The translations under genes were made by a program, and so were the position numbers. From Bacteroidales bacterium (lineage in GTDB: Bacteria; Bacteroidota; Bacteroidia; Bacteroidales; F082), in contig JAFRRS010000022.1 of the NCBI GenBank assembly GCA_017427985.1, forward strand, positions 62,001 to 126,000: DNA of 64,000 nucleotides, written 5' to 3'. This document shows positions 37,910 to 38,254 of this stretch, one piece after another. A model generated the notes under the pieces. It saw nothing but the letters and a program-made list of their open reading frames with translations, was not told the DNA's origin and searched no databases. Position 1 is the stretch's first letter. Every line of letters starts with the position of its first letter.

Positions 37910-38005
37910 TTGTTCCAAGCGGACTTCTTGGAGTAGCGAGAGCAAAAGCAAAACTCGTTTTGATTTTGCCGAGTCGCGACAAGAAGCCGCAAAATTTTGG
38001 AACAA
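37910..38005 (+). ncRNA. Structured leader element, copy 1, upstream of tRNA-Gly
   Basis: Outer 9-bp stem TTGTTCCAA/TTGGAACAA, then GCGG-A-CTTCTTG (37919-) paired with CAAGAAG-CCGC (ends 37990), and an inner GCAAAA/TTTTGC stem capped by CAAAAC/GTTTTG. Single-stranded parts GGAGnAGCGAGA and CCGAGTCGnGA are shared with copy 2. Transcribed with the tRNAs, so it may be a processing or regulatory structure. RNA status is inferred. Confidence 0.5.
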
Positions 38006-38011
38006 AATTTT

Positions 38012-38084
38012 GCGGAAATAGCTCAGTTGGTAGAGCACGACCTTGCCAAGGTCGGGGTCGCGAGTTCGAGTCTCGTTTTCCGCT
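38012..38084 (+). tRNA. tRNA-Gly (anticodon GCC), copy 1
   Basis: Full cloverleaf: acceptor GCGGAAA/TTTCCGC, D stem GCTC/GAGC, anticodon stem CGACC/GGTCG with loop TTGCCAA, T arm GCGAG-TTCGAGT-CTCGT, discriminator T. CCA is not encoded. Identical to the second copy. Confidence 0.97.
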
Positions 38085-38097
38085 CTAAATAATTGTT

Positions 38098-38167
38098 GCG
38101 GACTTTTTGGAGCAGCGAGAGCAATGACAAGCTTGCTAGAACATTGCCGAGTCGTGACAAAAAGCCG
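38098..38167 (+). ncRNA. Structured leader element, copy 2, between the tRNA-Gly genes
   Basis: GCGG-A-CTTTTTG pairs with CAAAAAG-CCG, and inner GCAATG with CATTGC. Compared with copy 1 both strands changed together (C-G to T-A in the outer stem; two pairs in the inner stem), so the paired shape is kept. It lies between the two tRNA-Gly genes, suggesting that element plus tRNA was duplicated as a unit. Confidence 0.5.
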
Positions 38168-38181
38168 ATTGGCAAATCCAA

Positions 38182-38254
38182 GCGGAAATAGCTCAGTTGG
38201 TAGAGCACGACCTTGCCAAGGTCGGGGTCGCGAGTTCGAGTCTCGTTTTCCGCT
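38182..38254 (+). tRNA. tRNA-Gly (anticodon GCC), copy 2
   Basis: Same 73-base sequence as the copy at 38012. It is followed 11 bases later by tRNA-Leu in the same transcript. Confidence 0.97.

Follow-up and report, generated by a model that had tools for sequence, protein, structure and literature searches.

A probable mobile palindromic element at the 5′ ends of two tRNA-Gly genes in Bacteroidales

Two imperfect hairpins, one upstream of each of two tRNA-Gly genes in a Bacteroidales genome, probably belong to a palindromic, non-autonomous mobile element of Bacteroidales that has inserted at both tRNA-Gly 5′ ends. The element is best read as a new family whose way of working resembles that of the RPEs, the in-frame palindromic insertions of Rickettsia (PMC10969869, PMC3733652). 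The DNA analysed, here termed the window, is a 64,000 nt stretch of contig JAFRRS010000022.1 (assembly GCA_017427985.1). Mobility is deduced from a comparison of species, represented mostly by MAGs.

The two tRNA-Gly(GCC) genes are identical and the tRNA cluster lies downstream of mutS (Table 1). The Bacteroidetes −7 consensus is TAnnTTTG. A box of this type, TATTTTTG, precedes the cluster, and sequence comparison shows that a TATTTTTGCACCG-like motif before tRNA-Gly is retained in related species as well. The placement of this promoter supports the proposal, made in a sequence-only reading of the locus, that copy 1 is part of the tRNA transcript. The same reading described two elements of about 70 nt (37919–37990 and 38098–38167), each directly upstream of a tRNA-Gly gene; the elements, their placement and all of the quoted stem differences are present in the sequence as claimed. 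Elsewhere in the window, a TPP riboswitch (RF00059) scores 70.3 bits at positions 15654–15745 (+); its place before thiamine genes is the expected one.

Table 1. Features of the tRNA-Gly locus, in window coordinates
Feature	Position	Strand	Basis or remark
−7 promoter box, Bacteroidetes type, TATTTTTG	37875–37882	+	before the tRNA cluster; read from sequence
GCGGA, copy of tRNA-Gly bases 1–5; left target repeat of copy 1	37919–37923	+	sequence
Copy 1 main hairpin, HP1	37922–37988	+	model R1, 70.7 bits, E = 1.5e-20; fold; covariation
Copy 1 second hairpin, HP2, CCGCAAAATTTTG-GAA-CAAAATTTTGCGG	37987–38015	+	sequence; stem scan
tRNA-Gly(GCC) gene 1, insertion target of copy 1	38012–38085	+	ARAGORN; Rfam RF00005
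GCGGA, copy of tRNA-Gly bases 1–5; left target repeat of copy 2	38098–38102	+	sequence; genus-wide pattern
Copy 2 main hairpin, HP1	38101–38166	+	model R1, 79.3 bits, E = 1.3e-23; fold
Copy 2 second hairpin, HP2, TTGG-CAAAT-CCAA	38169–38181	+	read from sequence
tRNA-Gly(GCC) gene 2, insertion target of copy 2	38182–38255	+	ARAGORN; Rfam RF00005
tRNA-Leu(TAA)	38266–38351		after both tRNA-Gly genes; ARAGORN

Each copy consists of an imperfect hairpin of about 66 nt (HP1), built around a conserved core and interrupted by two internal loops of tandem G-A, and a small 3′ hairpin (HP2). In both copies HP1 displays the order outer stem, GA/GA, five-base helix, GA/GA and apical stem. The five-base helix is GYAGC/GUCGY with one A-C mismatch (GUAGC/GUCGC in copy 1), and a tetraloop of the CTTG/CTCG type is common at the hairpin tip among copies. 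Copy 1 folds with −30.5 kcal/mol (z = −4.6), a value equalled by none of 200 shuffles; copy 2 shows the same pairing pattern with −22.3 kcal/mol (z = −2.3; 3 of 200 shuffles equal). The extra 9-bp outer stem previously assigned to copy 1 is found in the minimum-energy fold, where TTGTTCCAA pairs with TTGGAACAA, but it is one of two pairings, as CCGCAAAATTTTG is also able to pair perfectly with CAAAATTTTGCGG, which takes in the tRNA 5′ end.

Two copies by themselves would be weak evidence for a selected structure. Forty-six copies from a pattern search, 45 of them distinct relatives, were aligned (alignment A1), and a model, R1, was built from them. Double-sided changes are found in 16 of the 23 pairs of A1. 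The covariation score is 0.416, compared with 0.154 for shuffled and at most 0.097 for slid alignments, and none of 500 shuffles reaches the observed value; 160 cells carry a double-sided change vs. 45 in shuffles. The conserved blocks of A1 are partly imposed by the search pattern and their invariance is to be read with caution; the stems are situated outside of the pattern. The tRNA-Gly leaders of the window's genus (45 copies), in an alignment that is model-fitted and biased towards the structure, show double-sided changes in 14 of 23 pairs, with 93.3% of cells paired vs. 81.5% in shuffles. Both sets bear out the original proposal that the stem differences are compensatory and the structure selected, and the check named with that proposal, a covariance search for other copies together with preservation of their stems, yielded both.

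The element belongs to no named RNA family, as had been surmised: Rfam shows no match to the window elements up to E = 5, and copies at five other loci give none up to E = 1, nor any near the gathering score. A literature search of open-licence papers did not produce a description of the family.

When applied to the window's own genome, R1 finds exactly two copies, the pair in the window. By blastn, the element is present in 25 of 100 related genomes, mainly of the window's genus, and a pattern search of genome contigs gives approximately 80 clean Bacteroidales copies, largely from ruminant Prevotella-type and Bacteroidaceae MAGs. Of 344 Bacteroidales genomes, 81 contain an R1 match, and the number of copies per genome reaches at least 15. 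Twelve genomes reached via individual loci carry from 8 to at least 143 copies each by R1; the two top counts, at least 141 and at least 143, are lower bounds, as scoring covered 150 candidates, and come from rumen-type Bacteroidales MAGs. Copy number per genome ranges from 1 to more than 140, and part of the copies are in tandem. Phylum-wide, matches are limited to 3 of 296 genomes: that of the window, another from its order and a third from elsewhere in the class. The element is a Bacteroidales repeat, almost confined to the order. Phage and plasmid collections give one match each, and the pattern is found in 29 of 2.9 million viral contigs; carriage by phages or plasmids was considered and rejected, as the element is rarely carried there and copies are mainly chromosomal. 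Association with tRNA genes is consistent in the window's genus only, where copies are nearly restricted to tRNA-Gly leaders, and not across taxa. Outside of the genus, just a handful of the pattern-search loci are near tRNAs and most copies are far from tRNA.

Comparison of empty and filled sites points to insertion. The tandem tRNA-Gly leaders after mutS contain 0 to 3 copies when species of the window's genus are compared, and empty leaders are found at L246 (first leader), L250, L260–L262 and L266. At L262 the empty leader reads CACCGTCAAAGTCAAGCGGAAATAGC; its relative L263 reads AAAGTCAAGCGGAA-element-GGAGTCAAGCGGAAATAGC, with a AGTCAAGCGGAA repeat on both sides of the element. In this pair the tRNA 5′ end, GCGGAA, and the bases that precede it stand on both sides of the element. 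Copies in tRNA-Gly leaders start after GCG-G(A/T) in all 29 shown. Both window copies thus open with GCGGA because the tRNA start was duplicated on insertion, and the tRNA-Gly is left intact because GCGGA is duplicated. At L255, a truncated 5′ tRNA-Gly fragment lies directly before an intact tRNA-Gly and may have been left behind by an unequal exchange or by loss of the element.

Flanking direct repeats of 8 bp or more are found in other genomes at 24 of 120 single copies (expected 2.5, maximum 7 in 200 shuffles), part of this signal coming from the heptamer-type tandem repeats that host many copies; a preference for such repeats as target is an alternative contributor to it. Direct repeat length varies from about 3 to 15 bp and thus fits no single known transposase. 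Apparent empty sites that were first called inside heptamer-repeat arrays were set aside as artefacts of the repeats. Many copies are situated inside 7–8 bp tandem repeats (AACTCCTG, AAGATTG, GTCAATC, AACTAAC), e.g. at L150:48, L124:7161, L070:6566 and L219:2509, and these repeats may serve as targets or be the traces left by successive rounds of insertion and loss. TAACTGA heptamer repeats have been described (PMC4679880) and are possibly related to the repeats around copies.

The element is also found within protein genes. The gene at L119 has an in-frame element insertion of 72 bp (24 codons) that its orthologue at L143 lacks, and the gene at L098 has one of 75 bp (25 codons), also in frame, that is absent from its orthologue at L152. 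Of 149 copies that could be tested, 30 are embedded in an open frame with at least 40 further codons on each side, a count to which chance adds, the element being open in 28–49% per frame vs. 18% when shuffled. Several insertions lie inside or between Pfam domains. Zn_ribbon_2 (residues 39–145) surrounds the insertion at positions 94–119 of a Zn-ribbon/PNPOx protein, and Acetyltransf_3 (GNAT, residues 19–184) surrounds an insertion at 80–105. In AsnB, GATase_7 and Asn_synthase lie around the insertion at 201–226, and query residues 197–229 (approximately 33) oppose one residue, position 186, of E. coli AsnB (1ct9). The ACR_tran match spans two insertions in one protein; the AcrB-type efflux pump gene, L070:4917–8000 (−), has two in-frame copies in one protein, with 1028 codons in the stretch read. 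A GT2 glycosyltransferase likewise shows a Pfam match across two insertions, and an insertion in HsdS is confirmed by Pfam. Two type I restriction HsdS genes of one genome, at L232:2436–3761 (+) and 6911–8173 (−), each display a copy near the start, and these copies adjoin an NVPNLRF motif. The possibility of a single encoded peptide under selection was rejected, as the element is translated in different frames in different genes.

Other placements are at the 5′ ends of RNA genes. At L065 and L136 the element is situated immediately before the 16S rRNA, with TACAAT-type repeats on either side. At L051, in a tRNA array, it lies in antisense orientation right against the tRNA-Glu 5′ end, with AACCGACCA repeated. 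Several copies in other lineages show repeats that resemble the Bacteroidetes −7 box, e.g. TGCAAAGATAG around L289. Sequence placement suggests that the element may prefer transcript 5′ ends. A second subclass, CCGAGAGC...GCCGAGG, is found at L231, L237, L289, L293 and L296–L299; on the opposite strand its flanks, AAAGATAG or AAATATAG, have the form of promoter −7 boxes. Between two element copies at L104, positions 5869–5913 (−) give a match to Acido-Lenti-1 RNA that is below threshold (30.1 bits, gathering 37).

HP2, whose loop is often GAA, comes after the main hairpin and before the tRNA. In copy 1 the stem scan, which reports it on the minus strand, gives 13 pairs and a loop of 3, and the 3′ arm reaches into bases 1–4 of tRNA-Gly. 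The arms of HP2 are more complementary to each other than are randomly paired arms (5.40 vs. 4.88, sd 0.09, and 10.0 vs. 6.7 shuffled for the window's genus). In some copies the 3′ arm is part of the flanking target and the element therefore holds an inverted target copy, i.e. in copy 1 of the window, L263 (TTGAC-GGA-GTCAA) and L065 (AAAATATC-GAA-GATATTTT), and likewise in L289, L231 and L232. Outside the genus, a shuffle test gives no support to the general claim that all elements contain their own target in inverted form (own 4.96, shuffled 4.84, sd 0.09), and insertion with an inverted target is therefore offered as a speculative reading only. By such a route, which has not been described before and which we consider unlikely, a folded strand would become attached to a staggered break and be lengthened with the target as template, resulting in target-core-inverted target-target. 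If true, copy-and-join insertion would be transposition with neither a Y1 transposase nor a reverse transcriptase resident in the genome.

With respect to movement of the element, the folded single strand, either ssDNA or RNA, would be the form recognised by trans-acting machinery, and the fold and core may be selected while stem sequence drifts because it is the folded strand that is recognised. Once fixed, most copies would be neutral passengers. The window copies would be transcribed as a pre-tRNA leader and then removed by RNase P, and the fold is possibly also kept for a role on the pre-tRNA. The compensatory changes in the tRNA-Gly leaders of the genus may mean host-level selection on the pre-tRNA; alternatively, they could come from fresh-copy replacement or from gene conversion of one tRNA leader by the other. 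The near-restriction to tRNA-Gly leaders in this genus is not explained by a pure passenger.

A rival reading is a functional cis-acting RNA of tRNA-Gly transcripts, such as a processing guide, stabiliser or regulator, to which the dispersed relatives would be secondary. In its favour, many species of the genus carry copies immediately ahead of tRNA-Gly and in the sense direction, the leaders keep the structure through compensatory changes, and the pairing of HP2 with the tRNA 5′ end, found in some copies, could alter the access of RNase P. However, leaders are empty in some species of this genus, with 0 to 3 copies per set of leaders, copies of other genera are mostly away from tRNAs, and the copy-richest species carry the element between unrelated genes and within proteins, which makes a tRNA function as the primary role quite improbable. 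The earlier suggestion of a tRNA-processing guide or tRNA-specific RNA does not hold, given dispersed copies, empty leaders and insertions with flanking direct repeats.

Two known kinds of mobilising enzyme were considered. A parasite at the RNA level, copied by a resident reverse transcriptase in a SINE-like manner with variable target duplications, would agree with the variable direct-repeat length, the frequent CTTG/CTCG-type tetraloop at the tip and the compensatory evolution of stems. It is nevertheless very unlikely: no poly-A or primer-like tail is seen, and RVT_1 (PF00078) is absent from eight copy-rich genomes (G371, G087, G295, G193, G266, G498, G501 and G504), an argument that MAG incompleteness weakens only partly. 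A REP/BIME repeat moved by a RAYT (Y1, IS200/IS605-like) transposase is extremely unlikely, although the element shares with REP/BIME high-copy short hairpins, tandem clusters and a mainly intergenic location, and Y1 proteins are present in some carrier genomes including that of the window. PF01797 (Y1/RAYT) is missing from at least ten carrier genomes, all copy-rich (G371, G193, G295, G087, G266, G498, G504, G505, G507 and G509), and dependence on RAYT/Y1 is ruled out by this absence. G504 (at least 141 copies) and G498 (84 copies) have neither Y1/RAYT nor RVT_1. IS200/IS605 elements insert without target duplication, whereas direct repeats flank copies of the element; moreover its stem sequence is unconserved, unlike that of REPs, and it is often in frame in coding genes.

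Comparison with other small repeats also favors a separate family. Like RPEs, the element is a dispersed short palindrome with hairpin potential and no coding capacity of its own, is found between genes as well as in frame inside conserved proteins, and has no known mobilising enzyme. RPEs are about 150 bp in length (PMC10969869), whereas the element insertion is shorter, 72–80 bp. It differs further in that it is found in another phylum, has a tandem G-A loop core and stems that diverge with compensation, and is also situated at tRNA and rRNA 5′ ends. The element thus appears to work like an RPE by the descriptions of RPEs rather than by sequence homology, and membership is not claimed. Wolbachia palindromic elements (WPE) are likewise short, dispersed, hairpin-forming palindromes, found in frame inside proteins too. 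MITEs, which are derived from IS elements, are also small, non-autonomous and flanked by direct repeats, but the target duplication of the element is not of fixed length (about 3 to 15 bp) and it is conserved in the middle part of its hairpin, not in terminal repeats. PINSR of Prevotella intermedia is a 188 bp sequence that lacks terminal inverted repeats and has approximately 180 copies per genome; it is described as intergenic and restricted to the P. intermedia/nigrescens group (PMC4755523). High copy number in a Prevotella lineage and the lack of a known mobiliser are common to both, but the element differs in length and in terminal inverted repeats and is set apart by the description of PINSR.

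The finding carries a caution, in that covariation between two copies next to tRNAs need not mean a tRNA-specific RNA. In-frame palindromic insertions have so far been a Rickettsiales curiosity. As a genome of gut or rumen Bacteroidales can hold more than 140 copies, and AsnB, AcrB, acetyltransferases and glycosyltransferases tolerate them, hairpins of this type would be a wider source of protein insertions. The phylum has cultivable, genetically tractable members and thus offers a setting where the mobilising machinery could be found.
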